Origin: Polyangiaceae bacterium
GTDB taxonomy: Bacteria; Myxococcota_A; Polyangia; Polyangiales; Polyangiaceae
Length of the DNA: 63,372 nt
Assembly: GCA_023150915.1 (NCBI GenBank)
Contig: JAKLKA010000028.1
Location: 1 to 63,372 of the forward strand
Reading direction: 5' to 3'
The notes beneath the pieces are model-generated. The model was not told where the DNA came from, did no database searches, and saw nothing but the letters and a program-made list of their open reading frames with translations. Shown piece by piece: positions 40,182 through 51,900 of this stretch (position 1 is its first letter; the number at the start of each line of letters is the position of its first letter). The position numbers were made by a program, and so were the translations under genes.

Positions 40182-40904
40182 ATGGGCGTCCGGGAGTTCA
40201 TCGAGCGTGCGCAGGCCCTTTCCGGGGCCGATCCGCAGCTCTTGGACCGGATGGCCGCCGCGGCCACCACCCGCAGCTTGGCCCGCGGCGAGATGCTCTG
40301 GCACGCCGGGGATCCGGCCAAGGCCCTGACGGTGATCAAGAGCGGCCTGATCAAGGTGGTTCGGCCAGCGGCCCGGGGCCGCGCGTCGATCTGCGGCATC
40401 TTCGGCCCGCCCGACACGGTGGGCGACCTGGCGGTGCTCCGCGCGATCCCTTACCCCGCCGACGCTATCGTGGCCACCGAGTCGGCCAGCGTGATCTGCA
40501 TCCCGGGCACCCTGCTCACCGACCCCGGCGCACAGACCACGCCCCTGGCCATGAGCATGGCCTGCGCCATGCACACCAAGCTGGCAGCGCTGCACGACAA
40601 GGTCGAGGTGCTGTCGGCCGGCTCGGTCGAGGCGCGCCTGGCCACGCTGCTGATCAAGCTCTACGACCGCTTCGGCGACGACTTCGACGACGGCTCGCAC
40701 AGCATTCCGGTGGCCCTCTCGCGGCGCGAGCTGGCCGAGCTGGTGGCCACCTCGTTCGAGACCGCCATCCGAGTCATGACCCGCTGGGAGCGCGAGGGCG
40801 TACTGCTCACCACGCCGCACGGCTTCACCGTGCACAAGCTCGAGGTCCTGAAGGCGGCAGCGGGCGGCGACGGCACCGACGCGCTGATCCCGCTCACCCG
40901 TTGA
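40182..40904 (+). CDS. Crp/Fnr family transcription regulator
   Basis: 240 aa. The N-terminal cyclic-nucleotide-binding-like barrel (about 20-125: GEMLWHAGDPAKALTVIKSG, SICGIFGPPDTVGDLAVL) lacks the cAMP-binding Arg/Ser set and the four-Cys Fe-S pattern of Fnr. The C-terminal winged helix (about 165-235) has the recognition helix VALSRRELAELVATSFETAIRV. In this context a heme- or NO-responsive Dnr/NnrR-type role is likely but not shown. Its 3' end overlaps the convergent radical SAM gene by 11 bp. Confidence 0.9.
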   Translation: MGVREFIERAQALSGADPQLLDRMAAAATTRSLARGEMLWHAGDPAKALTVIKSGLIKVVRPAARGRASICGIFGPPDTVGDLAVLRAIPYPADAIVATESASVICIPGTLLTDPGAQTTPLAMSMACAMHTKLAALHDKVEVLSAGSVEARLATLLIKLYDRFGDDFDDGSHSIPVALSRRELAELVATSFETAIRVMTRWEREGVLLTTPHGFTVHKLEVLKAAAGGDGTDALIPLTR

Positions 40905-42015
40905 CCACGGCCAGCTGCACCCGGCCGAGCTGTTCCTCGCGCTGGCGCTGGTCGCGCTCGAACTCGGCCTCGTAGCCGGGGGGCACGTAGGCGCACAGGC
41001 CGTCCCAGTCGTGCAGCGCGCCGCTCACGGCATAGGCGCGGGCCCGGGACCCGCCGCACAGCTGCTTGTACTCGCAGGCGCCACACTTGCCCTGCAGCCG
41101 TTCGGCATCGCGCAGCTCCAGGAACACCGGGCTGGTGCGGTAGATCTCGATCACGTCGCGCTCGCGCACGTTGCCGCAGGGGATCGGAAGAAACCCGCTG
41201 GGGAAGACCTCGCCCCGGTGTGTAACGAAGAGGAAGCCGCGCCCGTCGTTGACGCGCACCCCTTGCTTGCCATGCGTGCCGTGCTCTGCCGCCACGCCGC
41301 TCGCACGCTTCTTCTCGGCCAGCACGCGCCGATAGTGCGGCGCCGCGGTGGTCTTGACCGCAAACGGCTCGTGCTCGGCGATGGCTGCCAGCTCTTCCAG
41401 CGCGCTCTCGACCGCGCTGGGGCTGGGCATCATGGAAAGCCCCGCGCGCCCCGTGGGGACCACGAAGAACACGCTCCACAAGAGGCAGCCCGCATCGCGC
41501 ACGACCGCGGCCATCTCTTTCAAGATGTGGATGTTCTTGGCGTGTATGCTGGTGTTGATCTGGGTGCCGATGCCAGCGGCCTTGGCATCGCGCAAGATCC
41601 TCAGCGACATGTCGAAGCTGCCCGCGACGCCGCGGAACGCGTCGTGGATGGCCGCGCCCGGGGCGTCCACGCTGACCGCCAGCCGCGCGAGCCCCGCCTG
41701 GGCCAGCTCGCCAATCAGCGTGGGGGTCACCAGCGGCGTGGCGCTGGGCGTGAGCCCCATGATGAGCCCGCGCGATCGGCCGTGCGCCACCAGCTCGAGC
41801 AAGTCGGGGCGCTTGGCGGGGTCGCCGCCCGTGAGAATCACCAGCGGAACGTGGGCCGCGGCAAGGCTGTCGAGCACGCGCTTGCCTTCGGCCGTATCCA
41901 GCTCGCTGGGGTCGCGCGCGGGTTTCGCGCAGGCGCGGCAGTGCTGGCACACCAGATCGCACGCTTGGGTGGTCTCCCAGATGGCGATGAACGGATGGTC
42001 GTCGAACTTGGCCAC
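40894..42015 (-). CDS. TIGR04053-type radical SAM/SPASM protein (heme-modifying-like)
   Basis: 373 aa from a GTG (VAKFDDHPFIAIWETTQACD). Radical SAM CxxxCxxC: CDLVCQHC (about 19-26); LTGGDP SAM-binding loop; SPASM auxiliary-cluster cysteines in GKCGACEYKQLCGG and the later LCAYVP. The opening WETTQACDLVCQHCRACA and the LSVDAPG / VFFVVPTGRAG blocks match the TIGR04053 family, related to AhbC/AhbD/NirJ heme-biosynthesis enzymes. A role in making or altering a heme for the neighbouring respiratory proteins is inferred. Confidence 0.85.
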   Translation of the reverse strand: MAKFDDHPFIAIWETTQACDLVCQHCRACAKPARDPSELDTAEGKRVLDSLAAAHVPLVILTGGDPAKRPDLLELVAHGRSRGLIMGLTPSATPLVTPTLIGELAQAGLARLAVSVDAPGAAIHDAFRGVAGSFDMSLRILRDAKAAGIGTQINTSIHAKNIHILKEMAAVVRDAGCLLWSVFFVVPTGRAGLSMMPSPSAVESALEELAAIAEHEPFAVKTTAAPHYRRVLAEKKRASGVAAEHGTHGKQGVRVNDGRGFLFVTHRGEVFPSGFLPIPCGNVRERDVIEIYRTSPVFLELRDAERLQGKCGACEYKQLCGGSRARAYAVSGALHDWDGLCAYVPPGYEAEFERDQRQREEQLGRVQLAVVNG

Positions 42016-42121
42016 GATAGAGCCCGGTCTGCGCAATATAGTGGCCCGCGCCGCGCCGGTCGAGCGGCGCCGATCAGGCCGCCGCGCGGCCGCCCGCTGC
42101 CCCGAAGCGCACCCGCCGCGC

Positions 42122-42138
42122 GCGCAATGCCTGCGCAA
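42122..42138. promoter_or_regulatory. GCGCAA direct repeat, 11-bp period
   Basis: GCGCAA occurs at 42122-42127 and 42133-42138, one helical turn apart, with a third copy at 42031-42036. All lie in the 270-bp gap between the divergent radical SAM and cytochrome c genes. Could be an activator site; may be chance in GC-rich DNA. Confidence 0.2.
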
Positions 42139-42285
42139 ATCCAGGCGGTGAACGGGGTTTTTCCTGGACGACAACTCCTGCCGCCGGCCCTCGGAAAATG
42201 CACTAGGGTGCGCGCCGCGGCCCACGACCTCGGCCGCTTGGTGTAGAAACCCCGCCGGGCGGGAATGATCTGGAGGACGAAGAAG

Positions 42286-42696
42286 ATGGATCTCAAAGTT
42301 GTTCTGGTCGCGTGCGGCGCGCTGCTCCTGAGCGTCGGGTGCAACAAGGAAGAGAAGGCCTCGGGCGGCGCCGTTGGCGCAACCACCGGGGCGGCCACGG
42401 CAGCCGGCGGCGGCAGCGACGACCCGGCGGCGTACTACAAGATGAAGTGCGCCGTGTGCCACGGCGACAGCGGCGCCGGCGACGGCCCGGGCGGCTCGGC
42501 CCTCACCCCGAAGCCCCGCAACTTCACCGAGGCGGCCTGGCACGGCACCGTCAAGGACGAGGACATCAAGAAGGCCATCGTCGAAGGCGGCGCGGCCGTG
42601 GGCAAGAGCGCGGCCATGCCAGGCAATCCCGACCTGCGCGGCAAGCCGGCCCTGGCGGACGCCCTCGTGAAGCACCTTCGCGGCATGAAGAAGTGA
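42286..42696 (+). CDS. Periplasmic c-type cytochrome, lipid-anchored
   Basis: 136 aa from MDLKVVLVAC; GGAGG nine bases before fixes the start. Lipobox LLLSVGCNKEE (Cys about 18), a Gly/Ala/Thr linker, then a single class I cytochrome c: heme site CAVCH (about 54-58), SALTPKPRNF, and distal Met in SAAMPGNP. A soluble-face electron carrier, plausible donor to the CuA subunit of the neighbouring oxidase/NOR-like complex. Confidence 0.93.
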   Translation: MDLKVVLVACGALLLSVGCNKEEKASGGAVGATTGAATAAGGGSDDPAAYYKMKCAVCHGDSGAGDGPGGSALTPKPRNFTEAAWHGTVKDEDIKKAIVEGGAAVGKSAAMPGNPDLRGKPALADALVKHLRGMKK

Positions 42697-42732
42697 TTCG
42701 CCCCGGGGGGTGATGGTCCAGGCGCCGCGGCA

Positions 42733-43224
42733 CTAGCCTCGGCGCCTGGGCTTTTTGTGGGTGGCGCCGGCGGCGACATCGGCCAGCGTGGTGTCACCGG
42801 CCCAGCTCTGCAGCGCGTCGCTGAGCGCCGACCACGCAGGGTGAAGCGGGCACGGGTTCTTCGCGTCGCACTTGCCCCAGCCGAACGCGCAGCGACCGCC
42901 AACCGGCGCTTCGCCCATGGCCCCCAGGATGTCGGCGAAGCGGATCTTGCTCGCAGGCCGGGCGAGCACGAACCCGCCGCCGTGCCCCTTCTGCGAGCTG
43001 AGCAGCCCCGCCGCGACCAGCCGCCGGAGCACCTTGGACAAGTAGTGAACGGGCACGCTCGCCTCGGCAGCCAGGTCGATCGCAGTTCGCGCAATTTGAT
43101 CGCCGCGGGCCAGGCAAGTCATCACCCTGAGCGCATACTCTGCGCTCTGTGACACGGGGGCGATGCCGTCACGGCGGGCAATGGGCAGCTTGCGCGGTCT
43201 CGTGGTGGGGTTCTTCGTTCGCAT
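42733..43224 (-). CDS. Rrf2 family regulator with Fe-S cysteines
   Basis: 163 aa. Winged helix at about 25-85 (SAEYALRVMTCLARGDQIAR ... VPVHYLSKVLRRLVAAGLLSS, HGGGFVLA). The cluster-binding segment CAFGWGKCDAKNPC has three Cys spaced C-x6-C-x5-C, near the NsrR/IscR arrangement. NsrR senses NO through its cluster, and NOR genes are common targets. Lies divergent to the HCO operon with a short shared promoter region (57-93 bp depending on the chosen start). Confidence 0.9.
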   Translation of the reverse strand: MRTKNPTTRPRKLPIARRDGIAPVSQSAEYALRVMTCLARGDQIARTAIDLAAEASVPVHYLSKVLRRLVAAGLLSSQKGHGGGFVLARPASKIRFADILGAMGEAPVGGRCAFGWGKCDAKNPCPLHPAWSALSDALQSWAGDTTLADVAAGATHKKPRRRG

Positions 43225-43281
43225 GATCGATGTCACTCCAGAATTCGTGGCCGTTGCCAGCGGCCCCATCAATAGACCACG

Positions 43282-44823
43282 ATGTCCATAAACAGCCAAC
43301 CCGGCAAGGCCCCACCCATGACGGAACGTAACCCCGGCGAGTCCCCCGAGGCGCAGAACGCGCGGCGCTGGGTGCTTTTGGCGGTGGGCTCGCTCTTGAC
43401 CTCGGGGGTGCTCGCGCTGTTCCTGGTGGTGGCCCGAACGCCGTTCTTCTCGCGCTTCGTCACCGATCCGGCGTTCTTCCGCCGCTGCCTGGTGGTGCAC
43501 GTCGACCTGTCGCTCTTGGTCTGGATCTACGCCTTCGCGGCCGCGCTCTCGTTCCTCTTGCCGAAGCGCGGGGCCAGCTCGCTGGCCAGCCGCCTGGGCG
43601 TGTTCGTGGCGGCGGCGGGCGTCGTCTTGCTGCTGGCCGCCGCCGGCGCCCCCGGAGCGCAGCCGATCCTCGCCAACTACGTCCCAATGATCGATCACTG
43701 GTCGTTCTCGCTGGGCTTGGTGGTGTTCGGCGCCGGCGTGCTGATGAGCGTGCTCGATCGCCGCCTGCTCCCCAGCGAGCCGGCGCCCGGCAGCGTGCTG
43801 TCGGTGCCCGCGGCCGCGGTGCCCGGCATCCGCACCACCGGCATCGCGCTGTGCATCGCCGCACTCACCTTCGCGACCACCTGGCTGACCGCGCCGCGCG
43901 GTCTCGATCCGGCCACGCTCTACGAGCTGGGCAACTGGGGCGGTGGCCACGTGCTGCAACTGGCCAGCACGGCCGCCATGCTGTGCGTCTGGCTGATCTT
44001 GCTGGCGGGTGTGCTGGGGCGCTCGCCGCTCTCGCGCAACGCCGCCGCGGTGCTGTTCGGCGTGCTGCTCTTGCCCTGGGCGGTCGCGCCGCTCTTGGCC
44101 GCCAGCGGCATGCAGAGCGTGGCGGCGCGCGAGGGCTTCACCCTGCTCATGCGCTGGGGGATCTTCCCGGCGGCGTCGCTCGTGCTCATCGCGTGCGTGC
44201 GCGCGGTGGTGCGCGGCTTCCGCCAGGGCACGCTCACCCGGGCCGAGCTGCGTGATCCTCGACTGATCGGCTTCTTCGCCAGCGCCGGGCTCACCGTGCT
44301 GGGCTGGGTCCTGGGCGCGCTGATCCGCGGGTCCACCACGGTTGTCCCGGCGCACTATCACGCCTCGATCGGCGGGGTGACGGTGGCCTTCATGGCGCTG
44401 GGGTACCCGCTGCTCGAGGTGGTCGGCGTGCCGGTGCGGGCGTCACGCCTCGCCCGCCGCGGCGCACATTGGCAGCCGGCGCTCTTCGGCGTGGGGCAGG
44501 GCGTGTTCGCCATCGGCTTCGCGCTGGCCGGCGCCCACGGCATGGGCCGCAAGCTGTACGGCGCCGAGCAGAACGTGAGGAGCCTGGGCCAGAAGCTGGG
44601 GCTCGGCGTGATGGGCCTGGGCGGCATGCTGGCCATCGTGGCGGGCGTGCTGTTCCTCGCGATCGTGGTCAGCGCCTGGTTGCGGCGCGAGCGCGCGCGG
44701 GTCTCGGCCTGGGAGCTGGTGGGCCCGGGCAGCTTCCTCGTTCCGGATCACGCCGAAAGTCAGGCCCGCGTCCAAGCGGGGGAACGTTTCAACATCAAGG
44801 AAAGGACTGGGTCCCATGGCTGA
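43282..44823 (+). CDS. Heme-copper-oxidase subunit-I-like protein lacking helix-VII His pair
   Basis: 513 aa (ATG at 43318 is a possible later start). Twelve membrane helices, as in HCO subunit I. Heme ligands are visible: H73 in helix II (VVHVDLSLLVW) and H358/H360 in helix X (AHYHASIGG), and a helix-VI His (GGHVLQ, H223). The helix-VII His-His pair that completes the metal-B site is missing (LPWAVAPLLAASG there). It can probably hold both hemes but not a standard Cu-B/Fe-B. First gene of the operon; its stop overlaps the next start. Role: a second, structural or electron-carrying HCO-like subunit. Confidence 0.75.
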   Translation: MSINSQPGKAPPMTERNPGESPEAQNARRWVLLAVGSLLTSGVLALFLVVARTPFFSRFVTDPAFFRRCLVVHVDLSLLVWIYAFAAALSFLLPKRGASSLASRLGVFVAAAGVVLLLAAAGAPGAQPILANYVPMIDHWSFSLGLVVFGAGVLMSVLDRRLLPSEPAPGSVLSVPAAAVPGIRTTGIALCIAALTFATTWLTAPRGLDPATLYELGNWGGGHVLQLASTAAMLCVWLILLAGVLGRSPLSRNAAAVLFGVLLLPWAVAPLLAASGMQSVAAREGFTLLMRWGIFPAASLVLIACVRAVVRGFRQGTLTRAELRDPRLIGFFASAGLTVLGWVLGALIRGSTTVVPAHYHASIGGVTVAFMALGYPLLEVVGVPVRASRLARRGAHWQPALFGVGQGVFAIGFALAGAHGMGRKLYGAEQNVRSLGQKLGLGVMGLGGMLAIVAGVLFLAIVVSAWLRRERARVSAWELVGPGSFLVPDHAESQARVQAGERFNIKERTGSHG

Positions 44824-44965
44824 AGATAGGCCGATACACCCCATTCAGAAGTTGCTCGACAACCCCTGGCTCTTGCTCGCGCTCGGCGTCCTCTTGCCGG
44901 CCATCTCCTACACCATCTGGGGTTTGGTCGAGCTCGGAAACCTGAAGCCGGCAACGCTGCCCTGA
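44816..44965 (+). CDS. 49-aa single-helix membrane peptide of the HCO/NOR operon
   Basis: MAEDRPIHPIQKLLDNPWLL begins the product; one membrane helix (about 18-40) follows and the tail is LGNLKPATLP. The ATG lies inside the end of the upstream gene (overlap ATGGCTGA), and the stop is 10 bp before the CuA gene, whose GAGGAG ribosome site follows at once. It is too small for most gene finders. Probably a small accessory subunit, as found in many cytochrome oxidases. Confidence 0.75.
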   Translation: MAEDRPIHPIQKLLDNPWLLLALGVLLPAISYTIWGLVELGNLKPATLP

Positions 44966-44975
44966 GGAGACGACC

Positions 44976-45503
44976 ATGGGAATCTCAGCACCGCCTGCAG
45001 ACTGGTTCAAAGCCCCATCGGGCACCGAGCGCGCGTGGATCGGCCTCGCGCTGCTCTGGTGCATCGTGCTCACCCTGGCGATGCCCTACTGGCATTTCAA
45101 GGGCAAGCAGAACAGCACGGGCGAGGCCTACGCCGTGGAGCCCGCCAAGTTCGCTGCCCGCGTCCAGAGCTTCGTGGCCTCGAACAAGGTCGACGAGAAG
45201 AACGGCATCCCGGTGGTCGAGGCGGCGCCCGGTGGCGACGCCTACCTGCAAGCGCAGATGTGGACGTTCTATCCGATCCTCAAGTTCCGCAAGGGTCAGA
45301 CCTACCGGCTGCACATCTCGTCCACCGACATCCAGCACGGTTTCTCTTTGCTCCCCATCAACATGAACTTCCAGGTGCTGCCGGGCTACGACCACGTGCT
45401 CACCATCACCCCCACGATGACGGGCGATTTCCCGATCATCTGCAACGAGTTTTGCGGCATCGGGCACCACCAGATGACCGGCAAGATCATCGTGACGGAG
45501 TAG
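44976..45503 (+). CDS. CuA-containing oxidase subunit II
   Basis: 175 aa, one N-terminal membrane helix (ERAWIGLALLWCIVLTLAMP), then a cupredoxin domain. The binuclear copper site is complete: His in STDIQHGFSL and the loop CNEFCGIGHHQM (C-x3-C-x3-H-x2-M, with the bridging Glu backbone position). Shorter than A-type CoxB (about 280 aa) because it has one rather than two helices, as in B-type and CuA-NOR complexes. Takes electrons from cytochrome c and feeds subunit I. Confidence 0.93.
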   Translation: MGISAPPADWFKAPSGTERAWIGLALLWCIVLTLAMPYWHFKGKQNSTGEAYAVEPAKFAARVQSFVASNKVDEKNGIPVVEAAPGGDAYLQAQMWTFYPILKFRKGQTYRLHISSTDIQHGFSLLPINMNFQVLPGYDHVLTITPTMTGDFPIICNEFCGIGHHQMTGKIIVTE

Positions 45504-45507
45504 ACAG

Positions 45508-47112
45508 ATGACGACGATGGATCCCACTGTCGAAGGCGCAGTCGCCGAAACCCCGGCCGATGCGGCCGAGCCCAAGGGCAACCACCTGCCCGGCTTGTCG
45601 CGGATCTGCGGCACCACCGGCTTCACGGTCGACCTCACGGCCCAGAAGTTCATCCAGCTGAACGCCGTCGCGGCGGTCGTGTGCCTGCTGATCGGCGGCA
45701 TTGCGGCGCTGCTGGTCGCGCTCACCCGCTGGCCGGCGGTGCACCTGCTGCCCGCCGAGTGGTACTACCGCATGGTCACGCTGCACGGGCTCTCGATGCT
45801 GATCCTGTGGATCATCTTCTTCGAGATCGCGGTCCTGTACTTCGCCGGAACGGTGCTCTTGAAGAGCCGCCTGGCGTCGGCCACCGCAGCCTGGATCAGC
45901 TTCATCATGATGGTGGTCGGCGGCGGCATGGTCGCGGCCATGGTGCTCACCGGCAAGGCCGACGTGATGTTCACGTCGTACGCCCCGCTCAAGGCGCACC
46001 AGCTCTACTACCTGGGCGTGATCCTGTTCGCGGTCGGCACGCTGATCGGGGTGATCAACTTCTTTGCCACGATCTACATCGCCAAGCGCGACAAGACCTA
46101 CAAGGGCTCGGTGCCGCTGGTGGTGTTCGGCGCCATCACGGCCGGCATCATCGCGGTGGCGACCTTGCTGCACGGCGCGGCGATCTACATCCCGACCTGG
46201 CTCTGGGCGCTGGGCGTGATCCCCAACATGGATCCGGCGGTCTACCGCCTGGTGTTCTGGGGCCTTGGCCACCCGTCGCAACAGATCAACGTCGCGGCCA
46301 TGGTCAGTGTCTGGTACCTGCTCAGCGCCATCACCGTGGGCGGCAAGGTGCTGAACCAGGGCGTCTCGCGCGTGGCGTTCCTGTTCTACATCTTGTTCAT
46401 CAACCTGGCTTCGGCCCATCACCTCTTGGTCGACCCGGGGGTGAGCGCCGGCTGGAAGATCTGGAACACCTCGTACGCCATGTACCTGGCGGTGCTCGCC
46501 TCGATGATCCACGGCTACACCGTGCCGGCCTCGGTCGAGGTGGCTCTGCGCAAGCAGGGGCACGACAAGGGGCTGTTCGGCTGGCTGGGCGCGGCCCCCT
46601 GGGGCAACCCCGGGTTCTCGGGCTTCTTCCTCAGCCTGCTGATCTTCGGCTTCATCGGCGGCATCACCGGCGTGACGCTGGGCACCGAGCAGATCAACAT
46701 CATCGCCCACAACACGCTGCGCATCCCCGGCCACTTCCACTCCACGGTGGTGGGCGGCACCACGCTGGCGTTCATGGCGGTCACCTATTACGTGGTGCCG
46801 CTGATCTTCCGCCGCGAGTTCCCCCTGCGCGCCATCTGCAAGCTGCAGCCCTACGTCTTTGCGCTGGGCATCGCCATGGTCTCGTTCGGCATGTCGTTCG
46901 CCGGCTCGTACGGCGTGTCGCGACGCCACTGGGACATCGAGTTCACGGGCGCCACGCACGCGGCGGGCTATGACGCCAGCGTGCACGTCTGGCTGGCGCT
47001 GGTGGGCATCGGCGGCATCGTCGCGTTCACCGGCCTCTTGATGTACGTGCTGCCGGTGGTAGGCGCCGTGTTCTTCGGCAAGAAGATCGACGGCAAGATG
47101 ACCCCGTGGTGA
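45508..47112 (+). CDS. HCO-superfamily catalytic subunit, NO-reductase-like (Tyr site is Gln)
   Basis: 534 aa, 12 or more helices. All metal ligands are present: H93 (helix II, TLHGLSM), H255 (helix VI), H304/H305 (helix VII, SAHHLLVDPG), H409 and H411 (helix X, PGHFHS). In oxygen-reducing oxidases helix VI reads HPEVY, with the Tyr cross-linked to the His. Here it is HPSQQ, and the Tyr position is Q259. Loss of this Tyr is the hallmark of NO reductases in this superfamily, and with a CuA subunit II the eNOR/CuA-NOR type fits best. Product expected: N2O from NO. A divergent oxidase cannot be excluded from sequence alone. Confidence 0.85.
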   Translation: MTTMDPTVEGAVAETPADAAEPKGNHLPGLSRICGTTGFTVDLTAQKFIQLNAVAAVVCLLIGGIAALLVALTRWPAVHLLPAEWYYRMVTLHGLSMLILWIIFFEIAVLYFAGTVLLKSRLASATAAWISFIMMVVGGGMVAAMVLTGKADVMFTSYAPLKAHQLYYLGVILFAVGTLIGVINFFATIYIAKRDKTYKGSVPLVVFGAITAGIIAVATLLHGAAIYIPTWLWALGVIPNMDPAVYRLVFWGLGHPSQQINVAAMVSVWYLLSAITVGGKVLNQGVSRVAFLFYILFINLASAHHLLVDPGVSAGWKIWNTSYAMYLAVLASMIHGYTVPASVEVALRKQGHDKGLFGWLGAAPWGNPGFSGFFLSLLIFGFIGGITGVTLGTEQINIIAHNTLRIPGHFHSTVVGGTTLAFMAVTYYVVPLIFRREFPLRAICKLQPYVFALGIAMVSFGMSFAGSYGVSRRHWDIEFTGATHAAGYDASVHVWLALVGIGGIVAFTGLLMYVLPVVGAVFFGKKIDGKMTPW

Positions 47113-47126
47113 GGAGGCAAGAGAAA

Positions 47127-47300
47127 ATGGCCAAACAAGAAAAAGCCGCCGACGTCATCGAGAAAGAGTCGGAGCACCACGGTGACGAGGCGCACAAGGC
47201 GCCGGGCACGTTCGTGCTCACGCTCATCCTGCTCGTCTCGTTCGCGGTGTATTACTTCGCGAACTGGAAAGCGCTGGCAGACGTCTGGCACGTCCGCTGA
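47127..47300 (+). CDS. 57-aa single-helix membrane peptide of the HCO/NOR operon
   Basis: 57 aa from MAKQEKAADV; GAGGAGG ten bases before favours this start. Charged N-terminus, then one helix (FVLTLILLVSFAVYYFANW) and a short tail ending WHVR. Sits between the catalytic subunit and the Sco gene; resembles small subunits IIa/IV of oxidases in size and layout. Confidence 0.75.
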   Translation: MAKQEKAADVIEKESEHHGDEAHKAPGTFVLTLILLVSFAVYYFANWKALADVWHVR

Positions 47301-47314
47301 GTGGGAGCTATGAA

Positions 47315-48370
47315 GTGACCGTCATGGCCGACCCCATCGATGCACCCCCGCCCGCTTCGGACGACTCCGAGGCCACGGGCGCGGGCGACAGCGGGGGGTC
47401 GGCGGCCGCGCCAAGCGGCCTGCATCGCGACGACGCCAGCGGCCTGCCCCGGCCGCTGGCGGCCATGCACGTGTTCTTCTCGTCGTGGCGTTTCCCCGTG
47501 CTGATGCTGGCGGTGTTGCTCTCGTTCGACATCTTTCAGCTCGCCATGCTGGTGATCCCCAAGGCCGACACCGGCATCGGCGCCTTCGCGGAAGAGTTCC
47601 GAGTCTGGTGCTACGGCCTGAACCAAGAGACGGGCGCCTTCGAGACCAGCTACATCGCCATCTTCTTGGCGCAGCCCGCGGTGATGTGCGGCGTGTTGGC
47701 CGTGGTGTGGGGCAAGCAAGTGCGCGAGGTGCTGCGCACCCGCCCGCGCGCCCTGCTCCCCTACCTGGGCGCCGCGCTGGTGCTGGTCAGCGCCGTGCTG
47801 GTCAGCCTGGTGGGGCTGGGCGGCAGCGCGTCTGCGGCTCCGCAGCCGTTCCCCGCCGCCACGCTCCGCACCGCCAAGCCTGCGCCGGTGGTGGCGCTCA
47901 CCGATCAAGACGGCGCCAAGGCCGATCTGGCGTCGCTCCGCGGCAATGTGGTGGTGGTCACCGGCATCTACGCCACCTGTTTCCACACCTGCCCGCTGAT
48001 CATGGGGCAGCTGCGTCGCAGCCTGGACGCCCTGAGCAAAGCCGAACGCGAAAGCGTGCGGGTGCTGGCGGTCACGCTGAACCCCGAGCACGACAAGCAG
48101 CCGGTGATGCTCAAGACGGCAGCGCGCTATCAGGTGAAGTCGCCGGAATATCGCCTGCTCTGGGGCGAGCCCGAAGAGGTGAACGCCACCCTCGACCGGC
48201 TCGAGATCGCGCGCAGCAAGAACCCGATGAACGGCGAGATCGACCACGCCAACCTGTTCATCGTGGTCGACCGCAAGGGGCAGGTCGCCTATCGCCTGAC
48301 CCTGGGTGAGCGCCAAGAGCGCTGGCTCACCGACGCCATCAAGCTCTTGGTGAAGGAGCCCGGCGCCTGA
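47315..48370 (+). CDS. Sco/SenC copper chaperone fused to a membrane domain
   Basis: 351 aa; GTG at 47315, or ATG at 47324. Residues about 45-175 hold about three membrane helices (FPVLMLAVLLSFDIFQLAML ...). The Sco thioredoxin fold follows (about 190-345), with the copper site GIYATCFHTCPLIM (C-x3-C) and the distant His in DHANLFIVV. Sco proteins deliver copper to the CuA site. Ordinary Sco has a single anchor helix, so the long membrane region is an addition. The neighbouring genes identify the target as the CuA subunit two genes upstream. Confidence 0.88.
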   Translation: MTVMADPIDAPPPASDDSEATGAGDSGGSAAAPSGLHRDDASGLPRPLAAMHVFFSSWRFPVLMLAVLLSFDIFQLAMLVIPKADTGIGAFAEEFRVWCYGLNQETGAFETSYIAIFLAQPAVMCGVLAVVWGKQVREVLRTRPRALLPYLGAALVLVSAVLVSLVGLGGSASAAPQPFPAATLRTAKPAPVVALTDQDGAKADLASLRGNVVVVTGIYATCFHTCPLIMGQLRRSLDALSKAERESVRVLAVTLNPEHDKQPVMLKTAARYQVKSPEYRLLWGEPEEVNATLDRLEIARSKNPMNGEIDHANLFIVVDRKGQVAYRLTLGERQERWLTDAIKLLVKEPGA

Positions 48371-48371
48371 G

Positions 48372-50552
48372 ATGACCGCGCCCGCCCCGACCGAAGCGGC
48401 GGGGGGCGACGCGACGGAAGCGCCGTCGCCTGCCCCGACCGAAGCTGACGTTACGGCACCTTCGCCGTCGACCCCGCGTTCACTCACCGTGATCCGCGAC
48501 GATGGCGAGCGCGTGGAACCCAGGGTCCGCGGCGAGCGCCTGCTGCGCCTGGGCAACCGCGGCTTCCAGGCGCTCGATGCCCTGCTCGCCAAGGGTCTGC
48601 CGGTCGAGCTCAACCCGCTGGCGCAGACCGGGGCCATCGCGAACACCTCGCTGATCACCGCGATCGTGTCGGGGATCGTGCTCTTGGTCTGGTACCGCAC
48701 CAGCGTGCACGAGGCCCACGACTCGGTGGTGGCCATGAGCCAGGCCCGCTTCGGCGCCGGCTTCGTGCGCAGCCTGCATCGCTACAGCTCGGACGCCACG
48801 CTGTTGTTCGTGCTGATCCACGCCGTGAAGCTGTTCTTCGAGCGGCGCTTCGGCGGGGCGCGCTGGCTCGCGTGGGTCACCGGTCTCGCGCTGCTCGGCC
48901 TGCTCTGGCTCGACGGCTGGCTGGGCTACTGGCTGGTCTGGGATCAGCGGGGCCAGCTGGTCGCGCTGGGCTCGGGGCACGTGCTCGACACGCTGCCGAT
49001 CTTCGCCGACCCGCTGTCGCGTTCGTTCTTGGTCGACGACCGCCTCAATTCGCTGCTGTTCTTCGTGGTCTTCTTCCTGCACATGCTGTTGCCACTGGCG
49101 ATGGGCGTGGCCCTGTGGCTGCACATCACGCGCCTGTCGCGCTCGTGGTTTCTGACCAAGCGGGTCATGACCGCCTGGGTCTTGGTCTCGCTGTCGGTGG
49201 TCAGCCTGGCCTTCCCTGCCGACGTGGTGGCCGCGGCCAAGATGGCCGTACGCCCCGAGACCTTCAGCATCGACTGGTGGTACCTGGCACCGATCGGGCT
49301 CACCGATCGGCTGGGCGGCGGCGTGCTCTGGGCCATCGTGCTGGGCTCGGGCGCCGTGCTCTTCTCCGTGCCCTGGCTGTTGGCCACCGGTCGCGCGCGC
49401 GTGGCCACGGTGATCGAGGCGCGCTGCAACGCCTGTCAGAAGTGCTACCACGACTGCCCCTACGACGCGATTCAGATGGTGCCGCGCAAGGACGACAAGC
49501 CCTTCGTCAGCATGGCCAGCGTCGACCCCAGCAAGTGCATCGGCTGCGGCATCTGCGCTGGCTCGTGCGACTCGGCGGGGATCGGGCTGCCGTGGTTCGA
49601 CAGTGTGCGCCAGCGGCATCGCATCGACGAGCTGGTGGACCAGACGCTCGGCGCCGAAGCCGACGTGATGCTGGCGCTGGTGTGCAATGAATCGGCTGCG
49701 GCCGCCCTGACCGTGGACGATCACACCAGCCGCTCGCCCGAGCTGCCGGGCTACAAGGTGGTGCGCGTGCCGTGCGCAGGCTGGATCCACCCGCTGACCG
49801 TCGAGCGCGCGCTCCGGCGCGGCGCGCGCGGGGTGCTGATCGTGGCTTCGGGTCCGGGCAGCTGCATGTATCGCGAGGGCAACCGCTGGACGACCGAACG
49901 CATGGCCGGGCAGCGCGAGCCGGCCTTCCGCGGTGAGAAGGTCGACCGCGAGCGCGTCCGCGTGCTCGAGCTGTACCGCACGCAGCGCGAGCGCCTGCTG
50001 AGCGAGGCGCGAGAGTTCGCCGCGAGCCGTCCGGGGCCCGGCGGCCCGCGGCCGGGCGCGGTCCGCCGGTGGGTCGTGGGCCTTGGCTTGGCTGCGACCT
50101 TCGGCCTGGTGACCTGGGCCGGCACCGCCGCCGCCTACCGCACGCCCGGCGATCCGTCGCCCCGGCTGGTGGTCTCGTTCAAGCACCCGGGCAAGGCCGG
50201 AGAGAACTGCCGCGAGCCGTCCCAGGCCGAGCTGGACAAGCTACCCAAGCACATGCGCCAGAAGCAGATCTGCGAACGGCGCCGCGCCAGCGTGCGGCTG
50301 AAGGTCGAGGTCGATGGTCGCGAGCTCAGCACCGGCACCTACGAGCCCCGCGGGATCTGGGGCGACGGCAACAGCATTGCCATCGAGCGGTTTGCCCTGC
50401 CCCCCGGCGCCCACCAGGTGAAGATCGAGCTGGGCGACACGATGAATCCGGCGGAATACAACCACTCGACCAGTCGCCAGGTCACACTGAAAGAACGACA
50501 CAACACCGTCGTTCTGTTCGACAAGATGACCGGCTTCGTGTGGTACGAGTGA
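48372..50552 (+). CDS. Cytochrome b / 2[4Fe-4S] ferredoxin / MvhD fusion protein
   Basis: 726 aa. Residues about 85-340: cytochrome b N-terminal type helices with two bis-His heme pairs (H136/H150 and H237/H251, each thirteen residues between). Residues 350-405: two [4Fe-4S] clusters, CNACQKCYHDC and CIGCGICAGSC. About 433-545: MvhD-type domain (VRVPCAGWIHPL, GPGSCMYREGN). About 565-590: another helix, then a secreted beta-rich C-terminal domain (FKHPGKAGENC ... FVWYE). It links a quinol-reactive membrane part to soluble Fe-S donors. Starts one base after the Sco stop. Confidence 0.85.
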   Translation: MTAPAPTEAAGGDATEAPSPAPTEADVTAPSPSTPRSLTVIRDDGERVEPRVRGERLLRLGNRGFQALDALLAKGLPVELNPLAQTGAIANTSLITAIVSGIVLLVWYRTSVHEAHDSVVAMSQARFGAGFVRSLHRYSSDATLLFVLIHAVKLFFERRFGGARWLAWVTGLALLGLLWLDGWLGYWLVWDQRGQLVALGSGHVLDTLPIFADPLSRSFLVDDRLNSLLFFVVFFLHMLLPLAMGVALWLHITRLSRSWFLTKRVMTAWVLVSLSVVSLAFPADVVAAAKMAVRPETFSIDWWYLAPIGLTDRLGGGVLWAIVLGSGAVLFSVPWLLATGRARVATVIEARCNACQKCYHDCPYDAIQMVPRKDDKPFVSMASVDPSKCIGCGICAGSCDSAGIGLPWFDSVRQRHRIDELVDQTLGAEADVMLALVCNESAAAALTVDDHTSRSPELPGYKVVRVPCAGWIHPLTVERALRRGARGVLIVASGPGSCMYREGNRWTTERMAGQREPAFRGEKVDRERVRVLELYRTQRERLLSEAREFAASRPGPGGPRPGAVRRWVVGLGLAATFGLVTWAGTAAAYRTPGDPSPRLVVSFKHPGKAGENCREPSQAELDKLPKHMRQKQICERRRASVRLKVEVDGRELSTGTYEPRGIWGDGNSIAIERFALPPGAHQVKIELGDTMNPAEYNHSTSRQVTLKERHNTVVLFDKMTGFVWYE

Positions 50553-50559
50553 CGCCCCC

Positions 50560-51900
50560 ATGAGCGTCGAAGTGCCCTTCCGCACGATCATCGAGCCGTT
50601 TCGCATCAAGGCCGTCGAGCCCATTCCGCTCACCACCCGGGCAGAGCGCGAGAAGCTGCTGGAGCGCGCGGGGTACAACCTGTTCAAGCTCCACGCCGAG
50701 CACGTGACCATCGATCTTCTGACGGACTCGGGCACCGGCGCCATGAGCGATCGGCAGTGGGCCGCCCTCTTGGCCGGCGACGAGTCGTATGCCGGCAGCC
50801 GCAGCTACGATCACTTCGAGACCACGGTGAAGCGTCTGACCAGCTTCGAGCACGTCTTCCCCACCCATCAGGGGCGTGCGGCCGAGCGCATCTTGTTCGA
50901 GGCAGTGGTGAAGCCGGGTGACGTGGTGCCAAACAACACCCACTTCGACACCACCCGCGCGAATCTGGAGCACGTGGGCGGCGTGGCGCTCGACATCCCT
51001 CGCGCCGGCGACCCGCAGTTCGGCGGGAACATGGATCTAGAGCGCCTGGCGCAGGTGCTGGCCGGTGACCGGCACGTTCCGCTGGTGATGATGACGCTGA
51101 CCAACAACGCGGTCGGCGGCCAGCCGGTGTCGATGGCGAACCTGCGCGCCGTCCGCGCGCTGTGCGACCGTCACCAGGTGCCGCTGTTCGTCGACGCCGC
51201 TCGGTTCGCCGAGAACGCCTGGCTGATCAAGCGCCGCGAGCCGGGCTTCCAGGATCAGACCCCCGAGCAGATCGCCTGCCAGCTGTTCGCGCTGGCCGAT
51301 GGGTGCACGCTCAGCGCCAAGAAGGACGGCATCGTCAACATTGGCGGCATCTTGGCCACGCGCCGCGCGGACTGGGCTCGCAAGTTCGAGGTCCTGCTGA
51401 TCTTGAGCGAGGGCTTTCCGACCTATGGCGGGCTGGCGGGCCGCGATCTCGAGGCCATGGCCGTGGGGCTGATCGAGGCGCTCGACCCAGAGTACCTGCG
51501 CTATCGCGAGGCGACCGTGGCGTACCTGGCCCGCGGCCTCGAGCAGGCGGGGCTGCCAATCGTCGACCCGCCCGGGGGCCACGCGGTGTTCATCGACGCC
51601 GCGCGCGCGCTCCCCGGGCTGCCGAAGGGCCAGCTGCCGGCCCAGGCCATCGCCGTCGAGCTGTACCGCGAGGGCGGTGTCCGCACGGTCGAGGTGGGCA
51701 CGTTGATGTTCGGTCCGGCGGCCCAGCACGAGCTGGTGCGCATCGCACTGCCGCGCCGGGTGTACACCGCGTCCCACGTAGACTGGGTGATCGAGACCGC
51801 CGAGCGGGTCGCGGCCCGGCTGGGCGAGATCCGCGGCTATCGGATCGTGGAAGAGCCGGCGGTGCTCCGCCACTTCACGGCGAAGCTGGCTCCGCTCTAG
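50560..51900 (+). CDS. tnaA: Tryptophanase (L-tryptophan indole-lyase)
   Basis: 446 aa, PLP enzyme that splits Trp into indole, pyruvate and ammonia. PLP Lys in LSAKKDGIVN (K255). Tyrosine phenol-lyase is the close relative. Two residues decide: D130 in HFDTTR (TPL has Thr) and H438 in LRHFTAKL (TPL has Phe). Both have the tryptophanase identity. Lies 7 bp after the cytochrome b fusion gene on the same strand, so probably co-transcribed with the respiratory operon, which is unusual. The 3' end overlaps the LuxR gene by 26 bp. Confidence 0.92.
   Translation: MSVEVPFRTIIEPFRIKAVEPIPLTTRAEREKLLERAGYNLFKLHAEHVTIDLLTDSGTGAMSDRQWAALLAGDESYAGSRSYDHFETTVKRLTSFEHVFPTHQGRAAERILFEAVVKPGDVVPNNTHFDTTRANLEHVGGVALDIPRAGDPQFGGNMDLERLAQVLAGDRHVPLVMMTLTNNAVGGQPVSMANLRAVRALCDRHQVPLFVDAARFAENAWLIKRREPGFQDQTPEQIACQLFALADGCTLSAKKDGIVNIGGILATRRADWARKFEVLLILSEGFPTYGGLAGRDLEAMAVGLIEALDPEYLRYREATVAYLARGLEQAGLPIVDPPGGHAVFIDAARALPGLPKGQLPAQAIAVELYREGGVRTVEVGTLMFGPAAQHELVRIALPRRVYTASHVDWVIETAERVAARLGEIRGYRIVEEPAVLRHFTAKLAPL

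Follow-up and report, generated by a model that had tools for sequence, protein, structure and literature searches.

A seven-gene heme-copper operon of a Polyangiaceae bacterium very probably encodes an eNOR-type nitric oxide reductase accompanied by a CuB-less paralogue and a cytochrome b fusion

The operon and its genes

Seven adjacent genes at positions 43282-50552, on the forward strand of a contig of a Polyangiaceae bacterium (GenBank assembly GCA_023150915.1, contig JAKLKA010000028.1), are analysed here as the probable operon of a nitric oxide (NO) reductase of the eNOR type. The window, that is, the whole stretch of DNA that was analysed, comprises 63,372 nucleotides; the source genome is a draft of 8.0 Mb in 295 contigs, 98.8% complete. 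The operon starts with a paralogue of the catalytic subunit of heme-copper oxidoreductases (HCO) that lacks the CuB site (43282..44823; COX1 Pfam, 39.8 bits), followed by a 49-aa peptide placed where B-family enzymes have subunit IIa (44816..44965; homologue in 78 locus rows and in the window), a CuA subunit II (44976..45503; PF00116 (COX2), 22.6 bits, cut-off 22), the catalytic subunit I, assigned to eNOR from its ligands, its Q258-Q259 pair, its place in the tree and a PF00115 (COX1) match of 222.9 bits (45508..47112), a short peptide read as the detached C-terminal membrane helix of subunit I, with which it forms one open reading frame (ORF) in most relatives (47106..47300), a Sco copper chaperone (47315..48370; PF02630 (SCO1-SenC), 61.9 bits) and a protein joining cytochrome b, two [4Fe-4S] clusters, an FlpD/MvhD domain and a C-terminal domain (48372..50552; Pfam Cytochrome_B, Fer4, FlpD). 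A first-pass annotation of the sequence had proposed seven adjacent genes, for an HCO-like subunit, two tiny membrane peptides, a CuA subunit II, an HCO catalytic subunit, a Sco chaperone and a cytochrome b fusion, and the ORFs, their coordinates and the Pfam matches agree with it, the two tiny peptides giving no match in the Pfam search. Homologues of each of the seven ORFs are present at other loci, and the five long ones have a high third-position GC (guanine plus cytosine) content, the two peptides being too short for this test.

Conservation was followed in the best 80 of 207 relatives in genome_contigs (the 80 named loci) and in 11 of 58 matching plasmid records. Ligands were counted in catalytic rows of at least 600 bits and in paralogue rows of at least 150 bits. 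The 87 catalytic rows are the window and 86 locus rows, five loci appearing twice, which leaves 82 different ones; the copies (L025-L029) are kept in the His and Gln counts of the catalytic subunit and omitted from the ligand counts of CuA, Sco and cytochrome b. The alignments A2 and A3 are subsets of 58 and 27 rows.

The catalytic subunit

It had been claimed at first pass that subunit I keeps all six His ligands and carries Gln259 at the position of the Tyr of oxygen reductases, and the relatives bear this out: H93, H255, H304, H305, H409 and H411, as well as Q258 and Q259, are each found in 87/87 rows (82 different), so the Gln and the ligand pattern are not due to chance. The roles of these His in heme and copper binding are presumably those of the equivalent positions in known HCO structures. 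The helix-VI motif, GHPSQQIN in the window (H255, Q258, Q259), reads GHQSQQVN in four relatives, GHSSQQIN in Defluviimonas and GHGAQQVN in Thermomicrobium and two Thermus plasmids, as against GHPVVYFW and similar in B-family oxidases. In a 110-row alignment the Tyr site holds Gln in 54/54 eNOR rows and Tyr in 9/9 B rows; Q258, Q259, N261, Y294 and H335 are all fixed in the 54 eNOR rows and occur in 0/9 B rows. The cbb3 oxidases take their Tyr from another helix, helix VII, an arrangement that the first-pass annotation named as one that would speak against it; at that position, six residues before the HH pair, a test made on sequence and not on coordinates finds Ile in 53/54 and Leu in 1/54 eNOR rows, with Tyr in 5/5 C-family rows.

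The column of H411 is His in 52/54 eNOR rows and Lys in 2/54, both from Thermus, among the more distant plasmid relatives; helix X of these two plasmid subunits (L113:9010-10692 and L114:9004-10689) reads GHFK, with Lys for the second His in 2/2. At the other end of the scale, a catalytic gene 97% identical to that of the window is found in a groundwater Myxococcales metagenome-assembled genome (MAG; JACPVJ010000117.1).

In a PDB sequence search the closest chains to the catalytic subunit are the B-family oxidases 7deg and ba3. AF2 predicts the HCO fold for it (pLDDT 80.0), and as structural matches to this model the A-type chains (Z 38.4) and the B-type ones (Z 38.0) are tied. No NCBIfam model reaches its cut-off with this subunit, the oxidase models falling far under theirs; CtaD/CoxA is the top name, in keeping with the expectation that automatic annotation would call the protein a cytochrome oxidase.

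The residue at the Tyr site serves as a published mark of the NO-reducing families, being Gln in eNOR, Asn in sNOR and CuA-NOR (bNOR), Asp in gNOR and Glu in cNOR and qNOR (PMC8756737, Table A4). The active-site Glu of cNOR and qNOR is not found, Gln standing in its place, and the Asn by which bNOR and sNOR differ from eNOR (same table) is likewise absent, with Gln in 87/87 rows. The first-pass annotation had named an eNOR/CuA-NOR group as the closest known type; of this the eNOR part stands, and the CuA-NOR part falls, because Gln is the published mark of the former and Asn that of the latter.

Family placement

A quick IQ-TREE phylogeny of 110 rows was computed with the Shimodaira-Hasegawa-like approximate likelihood-ratio test (SH-aLRT) as its one measure of branch support, without bootstrap. 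The A-family rows are the organism's own oxidase and tblastn matches in relatives; those of the C family and of qNOR were gathered by searching for each family, and the motifs of these rows were checked. Catalytic rows at least 86% alike, and paralogue rows that were at least 50% alike or short, were dropped. The tree thus sampled contains no sNOR, bNOR, gNOR or cNOR and not the purified eNOR of Rhodothermus marinus.

The eNOR catalytic clade (54 rows, SH-aLRT 97) lies on one side of a branch, as do the B oxidases (9 rows, 99), the A (14 rows, 100) and C oxidases (5 rows, 99) and qNOR (6 rows, 100), each on its own. The Gln clade stands beside, and outside, the B-family oxygen reductases and apart from A, C and qNOR, so a placement inside one of the three oxidase families, which the first-pass annotation had named as refuting, did not result in a tree without sNOR, bNOR, gNOR or R. 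marinus eNOR. A Rhodothermales MAG falls within the eNOR clade. The paralogues form a branch of their own (22 rows, SH-aLRT 100) and join the catalytic rows with a support of 99; in this sampling these branches point to a single old duplication in the eNOR lineage, after it had parted from the B oxidases. The branch separating the outgroup from the rest has an SH-aLRT of only 78, and IQ-TREE gives a warning of long branches, which in many cases are those of paralogues.

The accompanying subunits

In the CuA subunit II, H121, C156, E158, C160, H164 and M167, as well as Glu18, are each present in 81/81 rows; the CuA site claimed at first pass is hence intact. A single-helix subunit IIa occurs in B-family oxidases (PMC8780969), and the 49-aa peptide, from its size and place, looks like a subunit of this type. 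A small ORF just before the CuA gene is also seen in Defluviimonas, Thermomicrobium and the two Thermus plasmids.

In 60 of the 86 rows the last peptide and the catalytic subunit make up a single ORF; in 25 (20 different loci) the peptide is separate, and in one it was not found. By eye it looks like the C-terminal end of the Defluviimonas catalytic protein, which is longer. Since it is fused in most rows and has this likeness, it is read as a split-off helix of subunit I. That the separate ORF stems from a frameshift or an assembly error was considered and rejected, given the 25 locus rows (20 loci) with the same arrangement, including a congener whose assembly has 5 contigs.

The CxxxC cysteines of Sco (C222, C226) are kept in 74/74 rows and its H311 in 73/73. 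In the cytochrome b fusion H136, H150, H237 and H251, the presumed ligands of its two hemes, are present in 70/70, and the ferredoxin-cluster Cys in 70/70 and 69/69; the MvhD-type Cys are less constant (62/66, 60/66 and 29/65). Its relatives in the PDB are cytochrome b6, HdrA and MvhD-type chains. The C-terminal domain after FlpD, probably extracytoplasmic, has no Pfam match and keeps H627 in 59/61, M628 in 62/62 and R629 in 61/61 rows.

The CuB-less paralogue

In the first gene of the operon, H73 (helix II) and H223 (helix VI) are kept in 72/72 rows, and H358 and H360 (helix X) in 74/74; these align with the catalytic H93, H255, H409 and H411. All four are invariant in A2, where column identity averages no more than 44%, and a pseudogene is for that reason rejected. 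The columns of the catalytic H304-H305 pair, conversely, hold His in 0/22 paralogue tree rows; in one row (L080) an HH pair does occur in the same stretch, but outside the aligned columns. The AF2 model (pLDDT 89.6, pTM 0.88) shows a full HCO-subunit fold, with PDB structure matches of Z up to 29.5, A-type chains first and ba3 at 28.1.

Eight named phyla are represented among the 22 paralogue tree rows. Among the 51 named loci with enough flanking sequence, the paralogue is present at 46, the cytochrome b fusion at 50 and the two together at 45. In 237 sampled genomes of the phylum, the paralogue is present in 28/31 that have eNOR and in 1/206 that do not, and eNOR in 28/29 that have the paralogue; 31 genomes match at 1e-20, of which G187 and G207 do so via the catalytic gene only, hence the 29 counted. 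In the sole paralogue genome without eNOR, 780 bases separate the match from the contig end towards which the catalytic gene would be expected to lie. No paralogue was found beside the Thermus, Thermomicrobium and Defluviimonas plasmid genes, nor at five named loci with more than 3 kb upstream. At three Nitrospirota loci (L057, L060, L061) it comes after the catalytic gene instead of before it, and at L061 no cytochrome b fusion was seen.

Genomic company

A PF00115 search of the organism's own draft genome returns three HCO genes, namely one A-type oxidase, the catalytic gene and the paralogue; the genome search found no qNOR domain, no ccoN and no other NO reductase. Also present in this genome are a NosZ above cut-off and two NirS-type genes, with cd1-domain scores of 359 and 336 bits. 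Next to the first of these are a gene for a siroheme decarboxylase, which passes its cut-off, a NirJ-like gene, which does not, and another cd1-domain protein. As NirS-type genes and NosZ are present and no other NO reductase was found, eNOR fits the NO step. Each of the two NirS-type genes (L137:8785-10887 and L139:6350-8398) has two CxxCH motifs before the cd1 domain; a two-cytochrome NirS (C1-C2-NirS) is described as confined to Chloroflexi (PMC8756737).

The eNOR catalytic gene occurs in 31 of the 237 genomes of the phylum. NosZ at E <=1e-60 is found in 25/31 with eNOR and 58/206 without (p = 3e-8), and NosZ over cut-off in 22/31 and 45/206, respectively (p = 1e-7). In a set of 59 genomes including the organism's own, NosZ over cut-off is seen in 6/7 with eNOR against 8/52 without, a cd1 domain in 5/7 against 1/52 (matches over 200 bits, 20/59 genomes passing Pfam's low cut-off), NirK or NirS in 6/7 against 7/52, and a qNOR domain in 0/7 against 8/52 (p = 0.58). 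The genomes of both sets are related to one another and the counts are uncorrected for kinship. At the 80 named loci, with neighbours scored from 185 (nirK), 290 (nirS) and 300 bits (nosZ) and one weak nirK-like match (L081) omitted, the raw counts are 13 for nirK, 4 for nirS and 2 for nosZ. In Ardenticatena, eNOR and NirK are reported in one operon (PMC4653789).

Flanking genes

Upstream, a Crp-type regulator, a TIGR04053-like radical SAM protein, a cytochrome c and an Rrf2 regulator are grouped at 40182-43155. The Rrf2-family regulator (42733..43155, reverse strand, divergent from the operon; TIGR00738 94.7 bits, cut-off 73.3; PF02082 95.8) has three Cys, and a homologue is found near 28/80 named loci (raw count). 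The cytochrome c (42265..42696, forward strand; PF00034, 30.1 bits) has a single heme and is a possible electron donor; phmmer gives a match at 4/80 named loci, in two cases a weak one (59 and 26 bits). The radical SAM/SPASM protein (40894..41898, reverse strand), the true start of which is further upstream, scores 345.6 bits with TIGR04053 over the part that was searched, below the cut-off of 395. In the two Thermus plasmids, TIGR04053, cytochrome c and Rrf2 genes are likewise near the eNOR-like genes. An Rrf2 operator, sought as inverted repeats in 43100-43300, was not found; in the gap between the regulator and the operon, positions 43220-43239 are near-identical in three congeners and are a candidate regulator or promoter site. 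Directly after the operon lies a tryptophanase/tyrosine phenol-lyase-like gene (50560-51900), with a homologue at 5/80 named loci.

Discussion

The ligands, the Gln, the phylogeny and the genomic company together indicate that the operon very probably encodes an eNOR, a CuA-containing enzyme related to the B family that would convert 2 NO into N2O between NirS and NosZ. The type itself is already known, Deltaproteobacteria included, and Hemp and Gennis (2008) and Murali et al. (2024, PNAS; the main eNOR paper) are said to describe it. Occurrences are reported in Deltaproteobacteria (PMC8756737), Verrucomicrobiota (PMC13274419), Zetaproteobacteria (PMC8114936) and Gallionellaceae (PMC10734462). 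The operon shares with published eNOR the Gln at the Tyr site, the six His, the CuA subunit II, the relation to the B family and the nir/nos company (PMC8756737, PMC4653789). It goes beyond the predicted two-subunit structure (PMC8756737) in having the CuB-less paralogue, the cytochrome b/Fe-S/MvhD fusion, Sco and the split last helix. The Defluviimonas plasmid NZ_CP156080.1 resembles it in the catalytic subunit (55% identical, GHSSQQIN), CuA, Sco and a protein with a cytochrome b N-terminus, yet no HCO paralogue was found adjoining these genes, heme o synthase and hemerythrin genes being there instead.

Several observations weigh against the eNOR assignment or the denitrifying role given to it. 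The purified R. marinus eNOR is not among the rows of the tree, and two Thermus relatives are without H411, the low-spin heme ligand in relatives. The organism's own genome has no NirK above cut-off, and NirK alone is not clearly associated with eNOR in the 59 genomes (3/7 against 6/52, p = 0.06). At 61 of the 80 loci no nirK, nirS or nosZ is seen, many of the contigs being short, and 6/31 eNOR genomes show no NosZ, so that NO detoxification alone is possible in these six. Besides, absences in the 237-genome scans are uncertain, the best 5 or 6 candidates having been scored in many genomes, and the co-occurrence p-values are too small because the counted genomes are related.

A descendant of the B family that still reduces O2, with Gln in place of Tyr or with a Tyr supplied by another helix, would account for the nearest PDB chains by sequence, which are B-family oxidases, and for the K-like polar residues kept in part; the eNOR-specific Y294 (54/54), which precedes the HH pair on helix VII by ten residues, could even be taken for the missing Tyr. 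The HCO fold, the CuA subunit and the IIa-like peptide are further features in common with the B family. A continued O2 reduction is nonetheless very improbable, for B-family enzymes differ at the Tyr site itself and lack Q258, Q259, N261, Y294 and H335, the cbb3 position is Ile or Leu, Y294 would lie about three helix turns from the ligands, the clade branches outside the B oxidases and it is accompanied by denitrification genes. That the enzyme is another CuA-type NO reductase, sNOR or bNOR, hardly deserves credence: the set of CuA, catalytic and Sco genes does recall the norSY-senC of sNOR, but these families carry Asn where the clade has Gln in 87/87 rows, a comparison of published motifs, the tree holding neither family.

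As for the paralogue, the ligands suggest that it probably carries heme and belongs to the same complex, with a structural or an electron-transfer role. A rather doubtful alternative, itself compatible with the eNOR assignment, makes it a heme-free scaffold for assembly; the loss of the helix-VII pair, the alteration of other catalytic-subunit positions and the 3/31 eNOR genomes that show no paralogue would suit a scaffold, and the retention of four ligand His in all 58 rows of so divergent an alignment would not. A bolder proposal than a heme-bearing subunit as such is speculative and, to our mind, unlikely in its full form: the eNOR of these phyla would be a larger quinol:NO oxidoreductase, in which the copper-less duplicate would act as a two-heme electron-transfer (or NO-sensing) subunit, with the former CuB ligand H223 free to turn into an axial ligand of heme, and would be connected to a cytochrome b/2[4Fe-4S]/MvhD module to which a soluble cytoplasmic donor might also deliver electrons.

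Substrate, electron route and proton path of the eNOR are put forward here as a proposal. Electrons would pass from CuA to the low-spin heme (H93/H411) and on to the high-spin heme (H409); NO would bind at the latter and at the metal held by H255/H304/H305, and N2O would leave. Gln258/259 would take the place of the oxidase V-Y pair, and with the cross-linked Tyr absent, O-O cleavage is expected to be disfavoured and NO to be the substrate. Operon conservation and ligands suggest that the cytochrome b/Fe-S fusion probably supplies electrons from quinol, as they do the part given above to the paralogue. For proton transfer, a K-like set of polar residues is partly kept: Y270 and S332 occur in 54/54 and T338 in 51/54 rows, as in most B rows, along with Glu18 of subunit II; the Thr and Tyr of the B-family channel are replaced by H335 and V266. 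Glu18, T338, H335, S332 and Y270 suggest a proton path, and eNOR may thus be electrogenic. The NO-reducing mechanism itself follows published work on the eNOR type (PMC11388526, PMC13274419).

The cross-phyla conservation of a CuB-less HCO subunit together with a cytochrome b/2[4Fe-4S]/MvhD fusion is, provisionally, unreported so far; a literature search for either found none, within the passages that it covered and outside the main eNOR paper (PNAS 2024).

To sum up, NO reductases of this kind are readily mistaken for cytochrome oxidases, as reported for eNOR (PMC8756737) and for bNOR and sNOR (PMC11388526), and in the genome of this Polyangiaceae bacterium correct naming would fill the NO step between NirS and NosZ. 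If the proposed role is true, the CuB-less paralogue linked to eNOR would be a heme-copper subunit that has lost its copper site and been put to another use, which is, to our knowledge, an unusual case.

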